A stretch of 10,447 bases of DNA, from contig LGFB01000027.1 of assembly GCA_001508835.1 (NCBI GenBank), positions 1 through 10,447 of the forward strand. The letters are read 5' to 3'. The notes beneath the pieces are model-generated. The model saw only the letters and a program-made list of their open reading frames with translations, had not been told where the DNA came from and searched no databases. This stretch comes from a bacterium 42_11 (lineage in GTDB: Bacteria > Synergistota > GBS-1). The stretch's first letter is position 1; each line of letters begins with the position of its first letter. This document shows positions 1 through 8,326 of the stretch, one piece after another. Position numbers and translations under genes: made by a program.

Positions 1-1274
1 AAGAGGCAATAGAGCAGGCTAAGACAGGGCATCTTGAGTTTGATGAAGAAGTCTTTAGAGAAGCTATGGAAAGCGATCCGTTGAAGGTTTATAGGCTTTT
101 TGCTGCTGAGGGACAGTATATAGAATCTGAGAGCCTGACAGAGTATAAGGTGGGAAGCCCCATAGGCTTATGGCATTTCGATGAAAGGCTTGGTAACGCT
201 TCTTACGATTACTCCGGTAATGGACTTGATGCTCAGGTTGTAGGAGCTACCAGGGTCTTGGATGGCGGAAATTATGCCTTATCCTTCAATGGCGTTTCGG
301 ACTACGTCAGCATAGCTTCGAACTCGCTCCTCGATATGACCGATTCCGTTACTCTTGAGGCATGGATTAAGCCTGCAAGTATAGGTGGTCTTCAGACCAT
401 TCTTGCCAAAGGGGATGATACGGGAACCAACTATGGTTTGCGTCTCAACGGGAGTGAGATCGAATTTTTCTATACCGACTCTGGGGGAGCGGAACATATC
501 TATAGGACTTCTCTTGCAAGTATAGCAAGCGGAAATTGGTATCACGTTGGTGTAACTTTTTCCTTTGGAGAGGGCGATTCTATAAATATAGTTGTGAACA
601 ACAGTTCTGTTTCAGGTAGCTGGGTGGTAGGTGATGGAAGTGGTCTGGCTCAAGTTAATTCTTCTAGCTTAACCATTGGCTTGGCCAATAACTATTCAGA
701 TAAGAATCCCTTTAATGGTATAATAGATGAGGTGGCAATTTATGGCTCTGCTTTAAACTCCTCTCAGATCGCGGAAAGATATTCCGCTTCAAGGAGAACG
801 GTTTACTATCTTAGCTCGACGCCAGTTTCTATGGAACAGCCACCGGTTTTGAAGGTTAACGGTACAAGCTATACCCTTGTGGCTGGTATTCCTGAGAGCG
901 GAGAGTTCAGTTTGGACTACACGACGGGTAAGATTTTGCTGGGAAATGCGCCTGCTTTGGGGGCAAGTGTGAGCGCGAGTTACGTGGGAGACGCGGAAAA
1001 CGAGGATTACTGGGGAATAGCTCGGAGATTAAAGGAGATTCTTTATGATTATACAAGATGGGGAGGAATAATCCTCTCTACAGCAGGAACCGGCGGAACC
1101 ATAGATCAGCAGCTTAATCGGCTTGAAAAAGAGAAAGCGGACCTTGAGGCGAGATTAGCTGAGAAGGAAAGCTTTTTGTGGAATAAGTTCGTGGCCCTTG
1201 AGGAGGCTTTAAGCAATTTGCAGAGCCAAAGCAATTGGCTTACGGCTTATTTGGCAAATCTGGCTGGTTCATAA
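1..1274 (+). CDS. fliD: Flagellar hook-associated protein 2 (FliD, filament cap), 5'-partial, with inserted LamG-like domain
   Basis: FliD caps the growing flagellar filament outside the cell and helps flagellin monomers fold into place. The frame is open from base 3, so the ATG at 66 is internal; the true start lies upstream. Bases 27-101 encode a hallmark FliD stretch, GHLEFDEEVF followed by DPLKVYRLF. The last ~85 residues (from W/G at about 1011) resume FliD with GIARRLKEIL, a small Gly/Thr loop and a long amphipathic coiled coil ending in NLQSQSNWLTAYLANL. In ordinary FliD these two blocks are separated by roughly ten residues. Here about 300 residues intervene: a LamG/concanavalin-like fold (about 162-782) and a beta-rich module (about 794-1000). 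FliD identity rests on remembered family motifs. The insertion is directly visible and stays in frame, so it is not a frameshift artefact. The stop is followed after 22 bases by the next gene. Confidence 0.88.
   Translation, partial: EAIEQAKTGHLEFDEEVFREAMESDPLKVYRLFAAEGQYIESESLTEYKVGSPIGLWHFDERLGNASYDYSGNGLDAQVVGATRVLDGGNYALSFNGVSDYVSIASNSLLDMTDSVTLEAWIKPASIGGLQTILAKGDDTGTNYGLRLNGSEIEFFYTDSGGAEHIYRTSLASIASGNWYHVGVTFSFGEGDSINIVVNNSSVSGSWVVGDGSGLAQVNSSSLTIGLANNYSDKNPFNGIIDEVAIYGSALNSSQIAERYSASRRTVYYLSSTPVSMEQPPVLKVNGTSYTLVAGIPESGEFSLDYTTGKILLGNAPALGASVSASYVGDAENEDYWGIARRLKEILYDYTRWGGIILSTAGTGGTIDQQLNRLEKEKADLEARLAEKESFLWNKFVALEEALSNLQSQSNWLTAYLANLAGS
162..782 (+). other. LamG / concanavalin A-like (Laminin_G_3) domain inside FliD
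   Basis: This about 207-residue segment has the classic LamG_3 pattern. It opens with GLWHFDE and DYSGNGLDA, continues with ALSFNGVSDYVSI, LEAWIKP and NWYHVGVTF, and closes with FNGIIDEVAIYGSALNSSQI. Such jelly-roll domains are common in secreted bacterial proteins and often bind carbohydrate. It has no cysteine. Sugar binding here is inference; the fold call is strong. Confidence 0.87.
794..1000 (+). other. Second beta-rich module inside FliD
   Basis: The segment between the LamG domain and the FliD C-terminal helices reads as a small beta-sandwich. It runs from TVYYLSS through LKVNGTSYTLV to FSLDYTTGKILLGNAPALGA and SVSASYV. The 'D-x-x-T-G-x-I ... A-P-x-x-G-A-x-V-x-A-x-Y' pattern recurs in phage tail and bacterial surface proteins. 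I recognise the pattern but cannot name a family with confidence. Confidence 0.5.
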
Positions 1275-1296: not shown

Positions 1297-1902
1297 ATGG
1301 TAAAGGTTTTTGTTGATGAGGAAGAGCGGGTTGACCTTGAGGACATGGAAGTGAGCGAGGTTGTGTCCAGGGTAGAAGAAGAATTAAAAAGGGACGGCAA
1401 GGTGATCATGCGAGTTGAGCTTGATGGACAGCCTTTAGGGGAAAGGAAGCTCGAAGAGATCGATTTAAGGGGGGTTAGGGAGATAGCTTTTTTTAGTAAG
1501 AGCGTGAGCGAGCTTGTGAAAGAATCGTTGGCGGACCTTCAAGTTTATCTTCCCCGACTTTCGGGTGGCTTAAAAGATATCGCCTCTTTATTTAGGCTTG
1601 GCGAGTTTAAGAAGGCTTTGGGACTTCTTCCTAAGGCAGTGGAGGGGGTTGGCTGGCTCATAAAGGTTTTCGAGTACACGGCCTTGCTTTTAGGGGTCGA
1701 ATGGAAAACGTTAAAGGATGTGGATTTTGAAAGGGAAAGAGATGCTGTCGTTTCTAAACTTGGGGAGGTTTCCAAGGCGCTTGAAGATAGGGATTTTATA
1801 AGACTCTCAGACCTTTTAGCTTACGAGGTAGCTCCTGTAATTGAGGGTTGGGAGAAGATAGCTAATTACCTTTTATCTTTAGCTCAGCAAGTGCGTCATT
1901 AG
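1297..1902 (+). CDS. Unknown protein of 201 aa in the flagellar chaperone slot
   Basis: I do not recognise a named family. The ATG follows a near-consensus Shine-Dalgarno. The first ~70 residues alternate beta strands and an amphipathic helix (MVKVFVDEEE, VIMRVELDG, GVREIAFF), suggesting a small alpha/beta domain. The remainder (about 70-201) is predicted helical, with several amphipathic segments and a hydrophobic stretch around GWLIKVFEYTALLLG that looks buried rather than membrane-spanning. There is no signal peptide, so it is probably cytoplasmic. It begins 22 bases after fliD and its TAG stop touches the next gene. Genes directly after fliD are often fliS or fliT, helical chaperones of flagellin and FliD; a chaperone-like role is inference from position only, and I see no FliS or FliT motif. 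Confidence 0.85.
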   Translation: MVKVFVDEEERVDLEDMEVSEVVSRVEEELKRDGKVIMRVELDGQPLGERKLEEIDLRGVREIAFFSKSVSELVKESLADLQVYLPRLSGGLKDIASLFRLGEFKKALGLLPKAVEGVGWLIKVFEYTALLLGVEWKTLKDVDFERERDAVVSKLGEVSKALEDRDFIRLSDLLAYEVAPVIEGWEKIANYLLSLAQQVRH

Positions 1903-1907
1903 TGGGT

Positions 1908-2501
1908 ATGGTTAAAGCGGCCTTTATAGACAGGGATGGAACTGTTCTTGATAACATGGGATACCTTAACCATCCTGCACGAGTGAGGCTCCTTCCGGGC
2001 GTAGCTTGTGGTATAAGGCTTCTTAGGGAAGCAGGCTGGAAGATTGTAGTTATCACAAACCAGGGTGGCATAGAAAGAGGATATTATACCCATGATGTTT
2101 TGCACATTATAAACTTACGGATGCTTGAGCTTCTATGGGCGGAGGGTGCTCTTATAGATGCCTTGTATTATTCCCCTTTTGTGAGTGAGTCTCCCTGTAA
2201 AAAGCCTAACACTGGGATGATAGAGAGAGCGGTGAGAGAGCTCGGCATAGATTTGAGGTCTTCCTTTGTGGTTGGAGATCAGCTTATAGACTTGGAGCTT
2301 GCGAGGCGAGCAGGATGCCCATCTATACTTGTTTTAACGGGCTTTGGTTTGGGCTTTTACGAATACATGCGTGACAAAGTGGAAGAGTTATCCCCCATAT
2401 TTATAGGAGAGGACCTGTTAGAGGTTGCTGAATGGGTGGTGAACGGTGAAGGTTCTTATTACCTCGGCCTCAAGAAAGGTGGTGTTGGTAAGGAGCTTTA
2501 A
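1908..2501 (+). CDS. HAD-superfamily phosphatase, GmhB / histidinol-phosphatase type (HAD-IIIA)
   Basis: It is likely a cytoplasmic sugar-phosphate phosphatase. HAD motif I is FIDRDGTV (nucleophile D8, acid/base D10), motif II is ITNQGG (T50), the motif III lysine is in CKKPNTGM (about K98-K99), and motif IV is VVGDQLIDLELA (D124, D128). The nearest family is GmhB (heptose bisphosphate phosphatase), but the Cys/His zinc loop before the KP motif is mostly gone: the segment reads YYSPFVSESPCKKP with one Cys. ATG 1908 gives the usual short N-terminus; a GTG at 1902 overlaps the upstream TAG by one base (TAGTG) and is an alternative two codons earlier. Neither has a clear Shine-Dalgarno, so translation is probably coupled. 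Its 3' end overlaps the ATP-grasp gene by 56 bases. In context it may dephosphorylate a sugar intermediate of the nonulosonate pathway; the substrate is unknown. Confidence 0.85.
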   Translation: MVKAAFIDRDGTVLDNMGYLNHPARVRLLPGVACGIRLLREAGWKIVVITNQGGIERGYYTHDVLHIINLRMLELLWAEGALIDALYYSPFVSESPCKKPNTGMIERAVRELGIDLRSSFVVGDQLIDLELARRAGCPSILVLTGFGLGFYEYMRDKVEELSPIFIGEDLLEVAEWVVNGEGSYYLGLKKGGVGKEL

Positions 2502-3390
2502 ACGGTACGCAACCGTTTATGTTACCGATATAGACCCTCTCTCTCCGGCCATTTACATGGCCGATTTTTTTTATAAAGCCCCTTTTACTCTATCTCCTGA
2601 ATTTTCTGATTTTATACTCGATCTCGTAGATAGAGAGGAAATTAATATGGTTGTTCCGACAACTGACGATGACCTTACAGTGGTTGCTTCCTTAAGGGAA
2701 CAGCTTATCGAAAGGGGAGTTTTCCCTTTAGTCTCTTCTTTGGAAGTAGTTTCGATCTGTAATGACAAGATTAAAACCTATGGCTTCTTTAAGAAGAATG
2801 GTATTCCTACCCCGGAGACCTTCCCTGTCGAGGAGATAAAAGGGAAGGGTCCCCTTCCTTTTAAGGCGGTATTTAAAAAGAGATTTGGCAGAGGTAGTAG
2901 AGGGCTCTTTTACCTTAATGAGGGTGACCTTCCTTCCGAAAATATAGGTGAGGACTATATCGTTCAGCGTTACATAGAGGGAAAGGAGTTTACGATAGAC
3001 TCTTTTGTTGATTCAAGGGGGAATGTAATTTCCGTGGTTCCAAGGGAAAGGATTTTGGTAAGTGACGGCGTTTCCGTTCGAGGGAGGACGGTAAAGTCGG
3101 AAGAGCTTATCATGTGGGGCAGGAATATTTGTGAACTTCTTAGACCTTTGGGGCCCGTTAATATCCAGTGTATCTGGGGGAAGGAAGGAATTTTTTTCAC
3201 CGAGATTAACCCTCGTTTTTCAGGGGGAATAGCTTTGACCTTGGCTGCTGGAGCGGACTTCATTAAATGGAGTATAGACCTGGCTTATGGAAGAGAAATA
3301 ACCCCCTTGCCCGATTTTGAGGAGCTTTATATGAGCTGTTATAATGAGCCGATTTTTTTTAAGCTTCCCATGGAGGGGAAAAAGTTTTGA
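2446..3390 (+). CDS. ATP-grasp ligase, carbamoyl-phosphate-synthase-large-chain-like
   Basis: This 314-residue protein has the three ATP-grasp parts. An N-terminal Rossmann-like pre-ATP domain begins MKVLITSASRKV and carries VVPTTDDDL. A nucleotide-binding region holds VFKKRFGRGSRG and DYIVQRYIEGKEFTIDSF. The metal-binding end is TEINPRFSGG, with E253 and N255 as expected ligands. ATP-grasp enzymes join a carboxylate to an amine through an acyl phosphate. Stand-alone CarB-like members are common in surface polysaccharide clusters, with few known substrates. The GTG at 2446 is chosen because it starts the strand-loop typical of the fold; it lies within the HAD gene's last 56 bases. The stop overlaps the next start as TTGA. 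A role in adding an amino acid or other acyl group to the sugar is inference. A terminator-like hairpin lies early in the gene (2546-2572). Confidence 0.85.
   Translation: MKVLITSASRKVVLVRSFKRYATVYVTDIDPLSPAIYMADFFYKAPFTLSPEFSDFILDLVDREEINMVVPTTDDDLTVVASLREQLIERGVFPLVSSLEVVSICNDKIKTYGFFKKNGIPTPETFPVEEIKGKGPLPFKAVFKKRFGRGSRGLFYLNEGDLPSENIGEDYIVQRYIEGKEFTIDSFVDSRGNVISVVPRERILVSDGVSVRGRTVKSEELIMWGRNICELLRPLGPVNIQCIWGKEGIFFTEINPRFSGGIALTLAAGADFIKWSIDLAYGREITPLPDFEELYMSCYNEPIFFKLPMEGKKF
2546..2572 (+). terminator. Terminator-like hairpin plus T8 inside the ATP-grasp gene
   Basis: CGGCCAT (2546-2552) pairs perfectly with ATGGCCG (2557-2563) around a TTAC loop. One A and then eight T (2565-2572) follow. 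This has the shape of an intrinsic terminator. It lies 45 bases past the HAD stop and about 100 bases into the ATP-grasp frame, where it encodes ordinary residues (around SPAIYMADFFYK). Translating ribosomes would mask it, so it may act as a polarity or attenuation site, or be coincidence. Confidence 0.35.
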
Positions 3391-4142
3391 GAATACTGGG
3401 GTTAATTCAAGCTAGGATGGGGTCTAAAAGATTGCCTGGCAAAGTCCTTGCAGAGCTTGATGGAAGGCCTCTCATTTTTGCCCTGCTTGATAGGTTGAGA
3501 TGGTCAAAAAGGGTAGATTCTTTCGTTGTTGCTACTACAGTGCTTCCTGAAGATGACGCTTTGGTTGAGGTTTTAAGGGGCAAGGGATTTCAGGTGTTTA
3601 GAGGACATCCAATAGATGTCCTTGATAGGTTTTATAAAGCTGCTTCCCTGTTGGAGGCTAACTATATTGTTAGGATTACCGCCGATAATCCTCTTACCGA
3701 TCCCGGGCTTATGGATGAGGCAGTTATGACTGCTTTGGTTAAAAGAGCTGACTATGTGAGCTTTGTTAACCTACCCCTTGGGGTGTATCCCGAGGTAGTA
3801 TCTTTTAAAGCTCTTGAGAGAGCCTACAAGGAGGCTAAGGCTCCCTATCAGAGAGAGCATGTGACCCCCTATATAAATGAAAGTCCCGATAAATTTAACC
3901 TGATTTTTCTTGAAACAGATCTTGGATTAGGATGTGATGGTCTCAGATTAACGGTGGATTATCCTGAGGACCTTGAGCTTATGAGAATCGTATTTAAAGA
4001 GATGATGAAGAAAAGGGGAAGGTGGGGTATAAAGGAAGTGTTGGAGTTTTTGAGATCTAACTCTGGGCTATTGCTTTTAAATAGGCATCTTTCTCAGAAG
4101 AGCAAGTTTGAGGTGGACGAAGGGTGGGGTAGAGATGGTTAA
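3387..4142 (+). CDS. SpsF-type cytidylyltransferase (CMP-KDO synthetase-like)
   Basis: This 251-residue enzyme should transfer CMP from CTP to a sugar acid, activating it for a glycosyltransferase. The N-terminal nucleotide-binding signature is IQARMGSKRLPGKVL (R10, S13, R15, K19). RITADNPLTDP (about 96-106) and GHPIDVLDRFYKAA are typical of the SpsF branch. PYQREHVTPYI and LRLTVDYPEDLELM complete the family pattern. In Bacillus, SpsF acts with the NeuB homologue SpsE on spore-coat sugar; here the NeuB gene follows directly. The TTG start overlaps the upstream stop as TTGA and is preceded by a GGAGGGG ribosome binding site at about 3372-3378, which supports it. The last 8 bases overlap the next gene. 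The exact sugar cannot be told from sequence. The last ~35 residues look less conserved. Confidence 0.88.
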   Translation: MRILGLIQARMGSKRLPGKVLAELDGRPLIFALLDRLRWSKRVDSFVVATTVLPEDDALVEVLRGKGFQVFRGHPIDVLDRFYKAASLLEANYIVRITADNPLTDPGLMDEAVMTALVKRADYVSFVNLPLGVYPEVVSFKALERAYKEAKAPYQREHVTPYINESPDKFNLIFLETDLGLGCDGLRLTVDYPEDLELMRIVFKEMMKKRGRWGIKEVLEFLRSNSGLLLLNRHLSQKSKFEVDEGWGRDG

Positions 4143-5136
4143 GGTTGGAAGAAAGTTTGTGGGAGTGGGAGCTCCTTGTTTCGTCATTGCTGAGGCGGGA
4201 ATAAATCACAACGGGGATGTAAATCTGGCTAAAGAGCTTATAAGACAAGCTGCTAAGAATGGGGCCGATGCTGTTAAGTTTCAGTTATTTCACGCGGAAA
4301 ATCTTGTTGAGGAAGGAACCCCTGAGTTTGAGATGTTCAAGAAATGCGAGTTACCAAAGGATGCGTGGAAGGAATTAGCCCTTCTTGCGGAAAGAGAGGG
4401 GATAACTTTTATGGCCACACCTTTCGATCTTGAGGCCGTTAGTTTGCTGGAGGAACTTGGGACTCCTGCTTATAAGATAGCTTCTGGTGACATTACCAAT
4501 TATGAGCTTATAAGCAATGTTGCGAGAAAGTGGAAACCCGTTTTTTTGTCTACAGGTGGGGCTACTCTTGAGGAAATCAGGCTGGCTGTGGATTGTATAT
4601 ACGGCGAGGAAAACGACAGAATCATACTCCTACATTGCGTTTCATGCTATCCTGCCCCTCTCGAAAGCTTAAACTTGAAAGCTATTGATGATTTATGGGA
4701 GCATTTTCGCATTCCCGTTGGTTTTTCTGATCATAGTATAGGGATCGATGCGGCTTTGGTAGCTGTATCAATGGGAGCTGTGGCTATAGAAAAGCATTTT
4801 ACGATAGATAAATCCTTGCCAGGGCCAGATCACCATCATTCCTTAATCCCCGATGAGCTTTCCGAGATGGTTAAAAAGATAAGAAAGATTGAGAAGATGT
4901 TCGGAAGCGGGAGGAAGGAGCCGATGCCTTGTGAGTCTGAGGTAAGAGTTAAGGGAAGAAGAGGGATTAAGGCAGCCGTTGATATTCCTAAAGGGACGCC
5001 TATAGAGAGGAGGATGTTAGCTCTTGTTAGGCCCAAGAGGGGAATAGGAGTGGAGGACCTTCAGAATGTTTTGGGTAAGAAGGTAGCAAGAGATATCAGG
5101 AGAGGGGAGGACCTTCGTTGGGAGGACTTAATATAA
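4135..5136 (+). CDS. NeuB-family nonulosonic (sialic/legionaminic/pseudaminic) acid synthase
   Basis: NeuB-type enzymes condense phosphoenolpyruvate with a six-carbon amino sugar to make a nine-carbon acid. The protein has a TIM-barrel N-terminal domain: AEAGINHNGD (E20, N24, H25, N26), ADAVKFQLF, FMATPFDLEA, YKIASGD, and metal-ligand histidines H200 in GFSDHSIG and H221 in IEKHFTID, 21 residues apart as in known NeuB. PGPDHHHSLIPDEL is the lid/substrate region. A C-terminal antifreeze-like SAF domain occupies about 275-333 (GIKAAVDIPKGTPI to DIRRGEDL). ATG 4135 is preferred over TTG 4108 because GGGGTAGAG precedes it and the family begins close to this point; it then overlaps the previous gene by 8 bases. 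Length (333) fits the family. I cannot separate NeuB, LegI, PseI and SpsE specificity. Confidence 0.92.
   Translation: MVKVGRKFVGVGAPCFVIAEAGINHNGDVNLAKELIRQAAKNGADAVKFQLFHAENLVEEGTPEFEMFKKCELPKDAWKELALLAEREGITFMATPFDLEAVSLLEELGTPAYKIASGDITNYELISNVARKWKPVFLSTGGATLEEIRLAVDCIYGEENDRIILLHCVSCYPAPLESLNLKAIDDLWEHFRIPVGFSDHSIGIDAALVAVSMGAVAIEKHFTIDKSLPGPDHHHSLIPDELSEMVKKIRKIEKMFGSGRKEPMPCESEVRVKGRRGIKAAVDIPKGTPIERRMLALVRPKRGIGVEDLQNVLGKKVARDIRRGEDLRWEDLI
5101..5110 (+). promoter_or_regulatory. Ribosome binding site deciding the TTG start of the aminotransferase
   Basis: AGAGGGGAGG sits 7 bases before TTG 5118, inside the 3' end of the synthase gene. There is no ATG or GTG before the conserved VPFFKP segment, so this site together with the TTG is the best start. 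The result is a 19-base overlap with the synthase. Confidence 0.65.
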
Positions 5137-6278
5137 AGGGGGTTCCCTTTTTCAAACCTTCTATAAGAGATGAGGAGATAGAAGGGGTAACCGAGGTCTT
5201 AAAGAGTGGATGGCTTACGAAGGGAAAGGTAACGGAGGAATTTGAGAAAGAGTGTATGAAATTTCTTTCGGCTTCAGCGTGCCTTGCTGTTTCCTCGGGA
5301 ACCGCGGGTCTTCATCTTGCCCTGTTGGGCTTAGGTTTAAGGCCGGGCGATGAGGTTATAACAACTTCCCTGACCCATGTTGCCACGGTTCAGTCAATAC
5401 TCTATGTGGGAGCTAAACCTGTTTTTGCAGACATAGAACCTGAGACGATGAACATCTCTCCTGATGAGGTGCTGAAAAAGGTTACTCCGAAAACGAAGGC
5501 TATCCTTCCCGTTCACTTTGCGGGACATCCCTGCGATATGGATGCTCTTCGAGAGATAGCCCAGAAGTATGGGTTATCCATAGTTGAAGATGCTGCTCAT
5601 GCCTTTGGTGCTTCCTATAAGGGAAAGCCCTTGGGAAGTAACGGCTTTGGGGATATAACCGTTTTTAGCTTTTACCCTAACAAACCTATAACGACTGGAG
5701 AGGGAGGCTTAATATGCGGAGAGAAGGAGAGAATAGATAAAATTAGAGTATTGTCTCATCACGGTATTGTTTACCCTTCCCGTGGACGCTTATGGAGATA
5801 CGATGCTGTGGAGCTCGGTTATAAGTATAACTTTACGGATATCCAAGCTGCCATCGGTTTAGCTCAGCTTCGTAAATCCGAAAAGCTGTTGTTAAGAAGA
5901 AAAAGGATATTTGAGCGGTATAATGAAGCTTTTAAACATGAAGAGGCCTTGATAACACCTGTTATAAAAGATTACGCCTCTCCTTCCTATTATATATATC
6001 CTCTAAGACTTAACTTAAGGGCCTTAAAGTGCTCTCGAGATGAGTTTGCCTTCGCTCTTGAGCAGGAAGGAGTGGGTATTAGTGTTCATTATTCTCCTCC
6101 TGTCCATCTCCATTCTTACTATCGCAGGACCCTTGGTTTAAGAGAAGGCGACCTACCCGTGACAGAGGAGGCTTCAAGAAGCGAGCTTAGTCTTCCCCTT
6201 TATCCTGACATGAGAGACGAGGAAATCGATTTTGTAGTTGAGAGAGTGTTTAAACTTATTAAGTCATTTAAGAGGTGA
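5118..6278 (+). CDS. DegT/DnrJ/EryC1 family sugar aminotransferase
   Basis: This PLP-dependent enzyme moves an amino group, usually from glutamate, to a keto-sugar nucleotide. Motifs run in the expected order: VPFFKPSI and VLKSGWLTKG at the N-terminus, AVSSGTAGLHLALLGLGL (phosphate-binding), DEVITTSLTHVATV, VHFAGHPCDMD, VEDAAHAFGA (D158 contacts the PLP ring nitrogen), and SFYPNKPITTGEGG with Schiff-base K189. The C-terminal domain includes YKYNFTDIQAAIGLAQL and the late GISVHYSPPVHL. The length of 386 is normal and nothing essential is missing. Relatives in nonulosonate clusters (PseC, LegC, SpsC) make the 4-amino sugar before the NeuB step. The TTG start overlaps the synthase by 19 bases and the stop overlaps or abuts the next gene. 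The role as 4-aminotransferase is inferred from context. Confidence 0.92.
   Translation: MGGLNIKGVPFFKPSIRDEEIEGVTEVLKSGWLTKGKVTEEFEKECMKFLSASACLAVSSGTAGLHLALLGLGLRPGDEVITTSLTHVATVQSILYVGAKPVFADIEPETMNISPDEVLKKVTPKTKAILPVHFAGHPCDMDALREIAQKYGLSIVEDAAHAFGASYKGKPLGSNGFGDITVFSFYPNKPITTGEGGLICGEKERIDKIRVLSHHGIVYPSRGRLWRYDAVELGYKYNFTDIQAAIGLAQLRKSEKLLLRRKRIFERYNEAFKHEEALITPVIKDYASPSYYIYPLRLNLRALKCSRDEFAFALEQEGVGISVHYSPPVHLHSYYRRTLGLREGDLPVTEEASRSELSLPLYPDMRDEEIDFVVERVFKLIKSFKR
6271..6278 (+). promoter_or_regulatory. Shine-Dalgarno favouring TTG 6284 for the GH88-like gene
   Basis: AGAGGTGA ends 5 bases before TTG 6284. The competing GTG at 6275 lies inside this site and has no good site of its own, but would give a GTGA overlap with the aminotransferase stop. 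The two differ by three codons. Confidence 0.55.
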
Positions 6279-6283
6279 AGGGT

Positions 6284-7264
6284 TTGTCTCTCCAAGAGAA
6301 GATAGAGAGAATATTGAAAAATCAAAATCTCTCTATAGGTCTTCCTAGCTATACAATTCGGGGAAGGTGGTGGTTTAAGCCCTTTGACCATTTGGATTTT
6401 TGGGATTTAGGGTTTTTCATTGGACTACTTCTTAAGTTTGATGAATTTAAAGCTGTGGGGCTTAAGCTTCTGGAGATGCTTGAGGAAAGGATATACCCTT
6501 TAAATCATAATCTGGGTTTTTTATTTTATAGCTCTTTCGTTCCGGCCTATCTTGAAACGGGTTCTAATAAGTTAAAACACAGAATAAAGGCTGAGGCTGA
6601 AAGGATGGCTTCCCTCTTTAATGAAGAGCTTGGATTCATACCGATGGATGGTCCCGGCGGGGATAGTATAGCGATTGATACTTTGGCTTCTCTTGAGTTT
6701 CTTTGGTGGGCCTCAAGAGAGTATGGTTCTTTTAAGTTTTCGGATATTGCCATGAGACATGCTTTGAGTTCTTTGAAGTTCCTTTTGCGCCAAGATGGCT
6801 CAACCTTTCATATATGTTCTCTGAGTAAAGGACCCATAAGAGGTCAGGGATTAAGTTCCTTAAGTTGTTGGTCAAGGGGAGCTGCATGGGGCGCATTGGG
6901 TTTCTTGAGAGCGTATGAGGAGACGAAGGAGAACCTTTTTAAGGAAGCTTGTGAAAGGATACTTCGGTTTGCGATGAGTAATGTAAATGAAGATGGCGTT
7001 CCCCCTTGGGATTTTTGCGACAAGGATGGACCCAAGGACACTTCAGCTGGTGCGATATTTTTAAAGGTTCTTTCTTCCTTTAATGGAGATTTCTCGCTTT
7101 GGAGGGAGTCTCTTCACAGAAGCCTTTCCATCAAGTATGTTGCCAAGGAGGAAAATTGGGAAGGTTTTCTTAAAGGGGGGTGTTATCATTACCACTGGAA
7201 GAAGGGAATAGATGAAAGCTTAATTTGGGGAGATTTCTTTGCGTTAGATGTCTTGGAATTGTGA
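6284..7264 (+). CDS. GH88-like (unsaturated glucuronyl hydrolase family) six-hairpin protein with altered catalytic residue
   Basis: The protein (326 aa from TTG 6284) follows the GH88 pattern end to end: NHNLGFLFYSSFVPAYLETG (about 74-93), SIAIDTLASLEFLWWA (about 128-143), CWSRGAAWGALGFLRAYEET, VPPWDF, DTSAGAIF and the C-terminal ESLIWGDFFALDVLE. GH88 enzymes remove an unsaturated uronic acid from lyase products using two Asp residues. The second, in IAIDTL (D132), is kept. The first, normally in an HDLGF motif, is Asn here (N76). The family alignment is from memory. There is no signal peptide, so it is cytoplasmic. It is coupled to an aminotransferase in a biosynthetic run and no polysaccharide lyase is nearby, so a degradative role is doubtful. 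It may be a sugar-binding or sugar-modifying protein built on the GH88 fold; the function is not established. Confidence 0.8.
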   Translation: MSLQEKIERILKNQNLSIGLPSYTIRGRWWFKPFDHLDFWDLGFFIGLLLKFDEFKAVGLKLLEMLEERIYPLNHNLGFLFYSSFVPAYLETGSNKLKHRIKAEAERMASLFNEELGFIPMDGPGGDSIAIDTLASLEFLWWASREYGSFKFSDIAMRHALSSLKFLLRQDGSTFHICSLSKGPIRGQGLSSLSCWSRGAAWGALGFLRAYEETKENLFKEACERILRFAMSNVNEDGVPPWDFCDKDGPKDTSAGAIFLKVLSSFNGDFSLWRESLHRSLSIKYVAKEENWEGFLKGGCYHYHWKKGIDESLIWGDFFALDVLEL

Positions 7265-7270
7265 TATAAT
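7262..7270 (+). promoter_or_regulatory. Extended -10 promoter (TGATATAAT) before the UPF0104 gene
   Basis: TATAAT at 7265-7270 is a perfect -10 hexamer. It is preceded by TGA, giving an extended -10; that TGA is also the stop codon of the GH88-like gene. No convincing -35 is seen. The expected start point, 6-7 bases downstream, falls on or next to the ATG at 7277, implying a leaderless mRNA. Confidence 0.55.
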
Positions 7271-7276
7271 ATTTCT

Positions 7277-8326
7277 ATGAAGAAAACTTCTCTCAAGAAA
7301 GGACTTTTAGTCTTCCTTCTTATAACTTTTACCACTGCTTTTTTTGTAATTTTTTTTACCATAAGTGGAGAAACTATCAGAAACCTCTTGGAAGTAAGGA
7401 AGGAATTTCTCCTTTTAGCCTTTTTGTGCATATTTCTTTCTTGGACTTTCGAATTTTTACGTTTCAGGGAGCTTATAAGGGCAGCGGGTTGGGATATAAG
7501 CTTTCTTGATGGATTAGTGTTAGTGTGGATAAACTACTTTGGGTGTGCTGTTACTCCTCTTCAGAGCGGGGGAGGTCCCTTTCAGATATATGTCCTCTAC
7601 AGAAAGAACATTCCCATCGGTATTGGGTTTGCTGTTACCCTGATAAGAACGCTGATAACCCTGATCATACTTAGTTTTGCGGGTCCCCTGGTAATATTTA
7701 CGCATCCTGAGATGACGGAGAATCCCCTTTTAAGAGGCATGATGATATATGTTACTGCTTTCCTTGTGTGCATATCTGTGCTAATTTTTATAAGCTTAAA
7801 GCGCGTTGATGTTATAAGAAAGATGGCCGTGTGGGTGGTGTTATTCTTAAACAAGCTTGGTTTTTTTAAGAGAGTTGGTCCCCGTCATGTCATAAGAAGA
7901 GTGGAGAAAGAAATAGCGCTTTATAATGAGAATTTTAGACTCCTCATTGGCAAAGAGAGAAAGCGCTTGTTTTTAGCGATTACATATAGTTTTTTTCAAC
8001 TTCTGGCTCACTTTTGTGCTCTTCCTTCCATAATGTTAGGAATGGGGTTGAAGTTCGATTTGGGTAAGGTGTTGATGATTCAAGCTGTATTTTTGTTCAT
8101 TCTCTATTTTGTTCCAACTCCTGGGGGAAGCGGGGTGGCCGAAGGGGGAGCCGCGATATTATTCCACTATATTATGCCATCGCATGTAACAGGTATCATG
8201 GCGATTTTATGGAGGTTTTTTACGGACTACATACCTATAATACTGGGAGGTATAATTACACTTAAAATCCTCGGTCTTAAAACCCTCGAAGAGGTGGTTA
8301 AACCTGGTAGGGAGAGTCTGGAATAA
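7277..8326 (+). CDS. UPF0104 / lysylphosphatidylglycerol synthase TM-region family integral membrane protein
   Basis: This 349-residue protein is very hydrophobic, with about eight membrane segments near residues 8-28, 42-60, 78-93, 112-140, 152-172, 228-248, 262-280 and 300-328. Two family signatures are visible: TPLQSGGGPFQIYVLY (from T93) and VPTPGGSGVAEGG (TPGG from T281). The family resembles the flippase half of MprF but lacks its aminoacyltransferase domain; stand-alone members are thought to move or handle lipid-linked substrates, mostly without proof. A basic cytoplasmic loop (about 174-225) is rich in Arg and Lys. The ATG lies 12 bases after the previous stop and has no Shine-Dalgarno, but a perfect -10 box lies just upstream. 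Its position after the sugar cassette permits a role in glycolipid or glycan export, as inference only. TM positions are by eye. Confidence 0.85.
   Translation: MKKTSLKKGLLVFLLITFTTAFFVIFFTISGETIRNLLEVRKEFLLLAFLCIFLSWTFEFLRFRELIRAAGWDISFLDGLVLVWINYFGCAVTPLQSGGGPFQIYVLYRKNIPIGIGFAVTLIRTLITLIILSFAGPLVIFTHPEMTENPLLRGMMIYVTAFLVCISVLIFISLKRVDVIRKMAVWVVLFLNKLGFFKRVGPRHVIRRVEKEIALYNENFRLLIGKERKRLFLAITYSFFQLLAHFCALPSIMLGMGLKFDLGKVLMIQAVFLFILYFVPTPGGSGVAEGGAAILFHYIMPSHVTGIMAILWRFFTDYIPIILGGIITLKILGLKTLEEVVKPGRESLE

Follow-up and report, generated by a model that had tools for sequence, protein, structure and literature searches.

In some bacteria adhesion has been linked to the flagellar cap, as stated in the available text of a review (PMC7616799), and FliD proteins that take inserts at the D4-type site are already in print (PMC7316729). 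In the accessible portion of the latter paper, the authors state that the role of the Campylobacter D4 domain is unknown and postulate heparin binding, and the accessible sections of a later structural study place Campylobacter D4 far from the cap cavity and suggest that it takes no part in flagellin incorporation (PMC12221982). A lectin domain or LamG in FliD is not mentioned in the titles or abstract openings among the open-access PMC matches listed. The protein described here is a flagellar filament cap FliD that carries a LamG domain before its C-terminal coil, in a small bacterial group documented through genome assemblies.

The window, i.e., the whole stretch of DNA analyzed, is an entire contig of 10,447 bases (G000:C199) from a genome assembly that is 77.6% complete. 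A frame at positions 3 to 1274 of the plus strand runs open from the contig start and encodes 423 residues, which are 100% identical to the C-terminal 423 residues of P0004, a protein of 780 residues. Together with the open reading frame and the Pfam matches, this identity shows that the window carries the 3' portion of fliD, the last 423 of its 780 codons, and that the 5' portion lies beyond the contig start. No FliD_N match was obtained in this one 77.6% complete genome, and hence the 5' half of fliD is absent from that assembly. The window protein matches FliD_C (E 1.4e-12, 48 bits, cut-off 25.4) and, over residues 97 to 257, Laminin_G_3 (E 1.3e-25, 90.7 bits, cut-off 27.6), the latter match covering positions 2 to 151 of a profile of 151, so that the well-formed LamG domain noted in the sequence-only reading is borne out. 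The domains listed for P0004 are FliD_N, FliD_C, Flagellin_IN, and Laminin_G_3, with Laminin_G_3 sitting between two FliD_C pieces.

The features of the window gene all lie on the plus strand. Positions 3 to 104 (P0004 residues 358 to 391) hold the tail of the D1 piece of FliD_C, which closes with DPLKVYRLFA; a poorly conserved stretch of linker and strand then leads into the insert (105 to 143, residues 392 to 404), with 3 of its 13 columns invariant. The LamG jelly-roll domain occupies positions 144 to 791 (residues 405 to 620), the Pfam match proper extending from 291 to 773, and a small beta domain of no recognized family comes next (792 to 1001, residues 621 to 690). The second FliD_C piece, with the WGIARRL block and the C-terminal coiled coil, spans positions 1008 to 1271 (residues 693 to 780). 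The claim that FliD blocks flank about 300 extra residues is accurate, as the insert (residues 396 to 697) measures 302 residues in all eight protein clusters of this type (300 with an end correction). LamG does lie within these residues, as had been claimed, but it does not fill them, since about 70 residues behind it form the small beta domain. Outside the eight clusters, the small beta domain found no match below E 0.26 among 224 proteins searched.

Complete fliD genes, each a single frame of about 780 codons, are present in three relatives (L002, L003, and L004), one from the same genus and two from the same family, and one of them lies on a contig of 193,125 bases. The profile search of the full-length protein that the sequence-only reading had proposed gave FliD_N, FliD_C, Flagellin_IN, and Laminin_G_3 above their cut-offs in all three, with FliD_C split in two around the insert; FliD_N, whose absence from the upstream half that reading had named as fatal to its claim, is thus found in every intact relative as well as in P0004. 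The cap fold (D1-D2-D3), the flagellar gene neighborhood, and the ConA-like jelly roll are likewise all present. The eight protein clusters, one of which is P0004, align over their full lengths with identical joints, and the lowest pairwise identity over the whole protein is about 70%. The architecture occurs in four of four family genomes, the gene of the window being the one that is cut. When the window protein was compared with 57 other genomes, nine matched, solely within residues 293 to 423, behind LamG. As a separate observation, one family genome (G002) encodes an additional protein of 467 residues (L090, 6382 to 7785, minus strand) that matches FliD_C and Flagellin_IN but not FliD_N.

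How general the insertion site is can be judged from 116 FliD_C-labelled proteins gathered by two protein searches, in 109 of which the spacing between the FliD blocks was measurable. This spacing is at most 30 residues in 59 proteins, 31 to 60 in 1, 61 to 130 in 6, 131 to 230 in 26, 231 to 350 in 14 (8 of them the LamG clusters), and above 350 in 3. The earlier statement that family members have a short loop at this place therefore holds for the 59 but not for the 49 of 109 with more than 60 residues (41 of 101 outside the lineage of the LamG-bearing FliD). The nearest FliDs without an insert, P0158, P0159, and P0160, have 4, 15, and 14 residues there. In every LamG-bearing case the insert splits FliD_C in two and precedes the GIA..RL block, and an alignment with 6sih puts the long insert of Campylobacter FliD at this same position. 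The insertion site is general among FliDs, and what is new is LamG as the domain found there. Several other proteins (P0011, P0041, P0049, P0050, P0054, P0162, P0169, P0185, and P0188) have 314 to 456 residues at the same site; no named domain exceeded its cut-off in the long inserts of P0011, P0041, P0049, and P0054, and the P0041 insert has a Flagellin_IN match under the cut-off. In genus g8, FliD_C-bearing frames exceed 2,000 residues (2122 in G101).

LamG was found in none of the 108 other FliDs sampled, Laminin_G_3 being listed for the eight clusters only, of 116, and a profile built from this LamG retrieved the eight clusters from the sampled FliDs, with the next best match at E 0.34. 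All three protein searches scored only the 8000 candidates sharing most words, so that LamG-bearing FliDs may exist elsewhere, and the sample leans toward relatives of the LamG-bearing FliD; the rarity accordingly holds for the sample rather than for all bacteria. Of 185 genomes in the phylum, 20 contain LamG matches, and 16 of these 20 lie outside the family. LamG lies away from every FliD_C place among those listed in 13 of these 16, two more (G093 and G178) have no FliD_C match, and the last (G089) has no FliD_C place among the matches listed. All four family genomes have a single LamG match, the one in FliD. No close donor of the domain emerged, the matches without FliD_C being 24 to 35% identical.

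Among the eight clusters, mean pairwise identity is 76% for the whole protein and, part by part, 75% for LamG, 74% for the head, 80% for D1, and 65% for the small beta domain; the LamG part of the alignment contains no gapped column. Of the invariant LamG positions, 41 recur in half or more of a set of 14 other LamG proteins, 16 are polar or aromatic positions that are rare (<20%) in that set, and at 3 further ones few members of the set have a residue; the family-specific aromatic positions include W564, Y588, and F513/Y514. LamG dN/dS is 0.07 to 0.09 in the four pairs, of six, that gave a ratio, with synonymous sites mostly saturated. These alignments indicate that LamG is a maintained domain and not debris, and clusters as close as these eight may conserve it for folding alone.

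Modelled alone, the 302-residue insert gave a LamG jelly roll plus the small beta domain of about 70 residues with a pLDDT of 86.9. In the model of the whole protein, ten-residue blocks between residues 411 and 470, within LamG, have confidences of 38 to 58, and the direction of the domain is consequently not fixed by the model. Structural searches with the insert were filled by LamG matches: ranked by Z, the top rows belong to AbnA, which binds arabinan, in a tie with other ConA-like folds, and rows 5 onward, within 1 Z, comprise clostridial-neurotoxin-type jelly rolls and others; ranked by Foldseek E-value, chains of these latter kinds come first and AbnA (5hon_A) is 46th. The clostridial neurotoxin chains, which take up a large share of the fold lists, reflect a shared ConA-like fold class, and we claim no relation to them. 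Searched by itself against the structure database, the window protein matched an S-layer-domain protein at 4.4e-8, and AbnA at a nonsignificant E of 0.073. The lead to AbnA from these predicted folds is thin; a shared fold shows no function. Alignment of the whole model to 9gsx_X covers 836 columns at 15.7 Å, a figure for the whole protein and not for D4 alone.

We propose, with a probability of about one half (0.52), that this FliD displays outward-facing LamG domains that bind glycan, so that the flagellar tip holds a surface, a mat, or a neighboring cell. LamG and the small beta domain occupy the D4 position, in a loop of the leg (D1) domain, and a cap oligomer of five or six FliD subunits would show as many LamG domains on its outside. 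Each might bind a polysaccharide or other glycan weakly on its own and all of them firmly together, and the tip could then grip a surface, mat, or neighboring cell while flagellin insertion went on undisturbed. Fold, conservation, and site agree with this putative adhesin role, as far as alignments and models can tell. A LamG fold can also serve as a protein-binding domain or as a spacer.

A purely structural function, with LamG as a ligand-free spacer or stabilizer of the cap that would for instance help seat it on very large flagellins, is the alternative that survives best, and we consider it unlikely. Large flagellins are indeed encoded in the family (seven frames of 789 to 841 residues in G001 to G003, plus one of 247 residues in each), and the accessible text of the Campylobacter study locates D4 between a neighbor's D3 and FlgL (PMC12221982). 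Against it, 16 genomes of the phylum have only 20 to 28 residues at the site (L032 to L050), and 10 of them (G176, G010, G042, G018, G052, G040, G127, G019, G133, and G064) have a flagellin frame of 756 to 1006 residues; in the other six (G066, G065, G015, G067, G038, and G055), no full flagellin frame was found among the matches listed. FliDs with a short site thus exist alongside flagellins of 756 to 1006 residues, which implies that large flagellins need no insert, and the idea that the insert is a fit to large flagellins is not supported by the phylum comparison. The 16 family-specific invariant polar or aromatic LamG positions, with the further 3, also speak against a mere spacer. Because insert size does not track flagellin size within the phylum and LamG is as conserved as the cap itself, a glycan-binding tip appears to be the best reading.

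It is improbable that LamG instead binds a protein, such as an S-layer protein, a pilin, or a surface protein of another cell. LamG-type folds are generally known to serve both roles and the S-layer-domain protein mentioned above scored best by sequence in the structure database, but a close fold with a ligand seen in its structure binds a sugar.

The surroundings of fliD raise the question of which sugar a glycan-binding tip might recognize. Upstream of fliD lies a flagellin gene in all three relatives, and FlaG precedes fliD according to Pfam in the one relative scanned, with a gene of the same size in the other two. As to the flagellins themselves, a neighboring pair of large ones occurs in G002, and in three flagellins of 782 to 833 residues (two in G001, on C14 and C3, and one in G002, on C26) Flagellin_IN is the only central domain over the cut-off. 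Immediately behind fliD, in four of four family genomes, stands a gene for a conserved protein of about 200 residues with no Pfam or NCBIfam match (1297 to 1902, plus strand), which we would guess to be a chaperone of the cap protein; FliS is encoded elsewhere in three of the four family genomes. There follow, all on the same strand, genes for a HAD phosphatase, an ATP-grasp protein, a cytidylyltransferase (CTP_transf_3; 3387 to 4142), a NeuB-family synthase (4132 to 5136), a PseC-like aminotransferase of the DegT family (5118 to 6278), an unnamed protein of 329 residues, and a flippase-like membrane protein. The genes of this sugar-acid-type run (window positions 1902 to 8326) overlap or abut end to end, and their order is the same in all three relatives as far as the DNA was read. 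The synthase resembles the NeuB_NnaB and PseI models and the aminotransferase resembles PseC, in each case above the broad Pfam cut-offs and below the specific NCBIfam ones. Three of four family genomes also encode a protein that has the MptE-like domain of Maf proteins, with Maf_flag10_N in the one scanned. From the sugar-acid genes and the Maf-type protein, it is plausible that the flagellin carries sialic-acid-type sugar acids, which would be a potential ligand of LamG.

The cap could then be a lectin for the cell's own nonulosonic-acid-type flagellin glycans, on the same or sister cells, and serve to bundle flagella or hold cells together. The same-strand run of NeuB-family, PseC-like, and cytidylyltransferase genes, its short or overlapping junctions, its constant order in relatives, and the Maf-type protein all point this way. 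The argument is one of gene neighborhood alone, however, with enzymes below the cut-offs for named pathways; the sugars may go into other polymers, and the nearest solved fold with a sugar seen binds arabinan and not acid sugars, so that we hold this version to be doubtful at best. A still more specific proposal, in which the genes behind fliD make nonulosonic-acid-type glycans and a dedicated multivalent lectin at the tip reads them so as to recognize kin filaments or cells, is a long shot; if it were true, one cap would serve filament growth and cell-cell recognition together. That an assembly artefact joined fliD to a separate LamG gene, which the sequence-only reading had named as a way to be wrong, can be rejected with near certainty, for although the window gene is truncated where a contig of an incomplete genome begins, three further genomes each have the gene as one unbroken frame of about 780 codons, in one of them on a contig of 193 kb, and the same joints recur in eight protein clusters.

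Set beside the systems already described, the FliD of Campylobacter jejuni is alike in having a long insert, D4 (6sih and 9gsx), in the corresponding position on the D1 leg according to our reading of the alignment, and it differs in size, as its insert counts about 140 residues in the alignment versus 302 with LamG here. Domain4 of AbnA (5hon and 5hp6) is a carbohydrate-binding module located behind a Geobacillus arabinanase, whereas the LamG domain discussed here belongs to a flagellar protein, and the two are likened by fold alone, with other ConA-like folds tied in Z. Flagellinolysin and other domain-bearing flagellins, in the accessible part of their description (PMC5595980), are likewise axial proteins of the flagellum with a foreign domain in their surface region; there, it is an enzyme in flagellin along the filament, and here it is a binding-type fold in the cap, present in few copies at the tip. 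A recognized carbohydrate-binding-type domain at the D4 site makes the question of D4-domain adhesins testable with one expressed domain, and if this domain binds sugar, the flagellar tip could be a sticky or sensing end. The LamG-bearing FliD adds a case to the domain insertions known in axial proteins of the flagellum, and its putative glycan-binding role at the tip is plausible.
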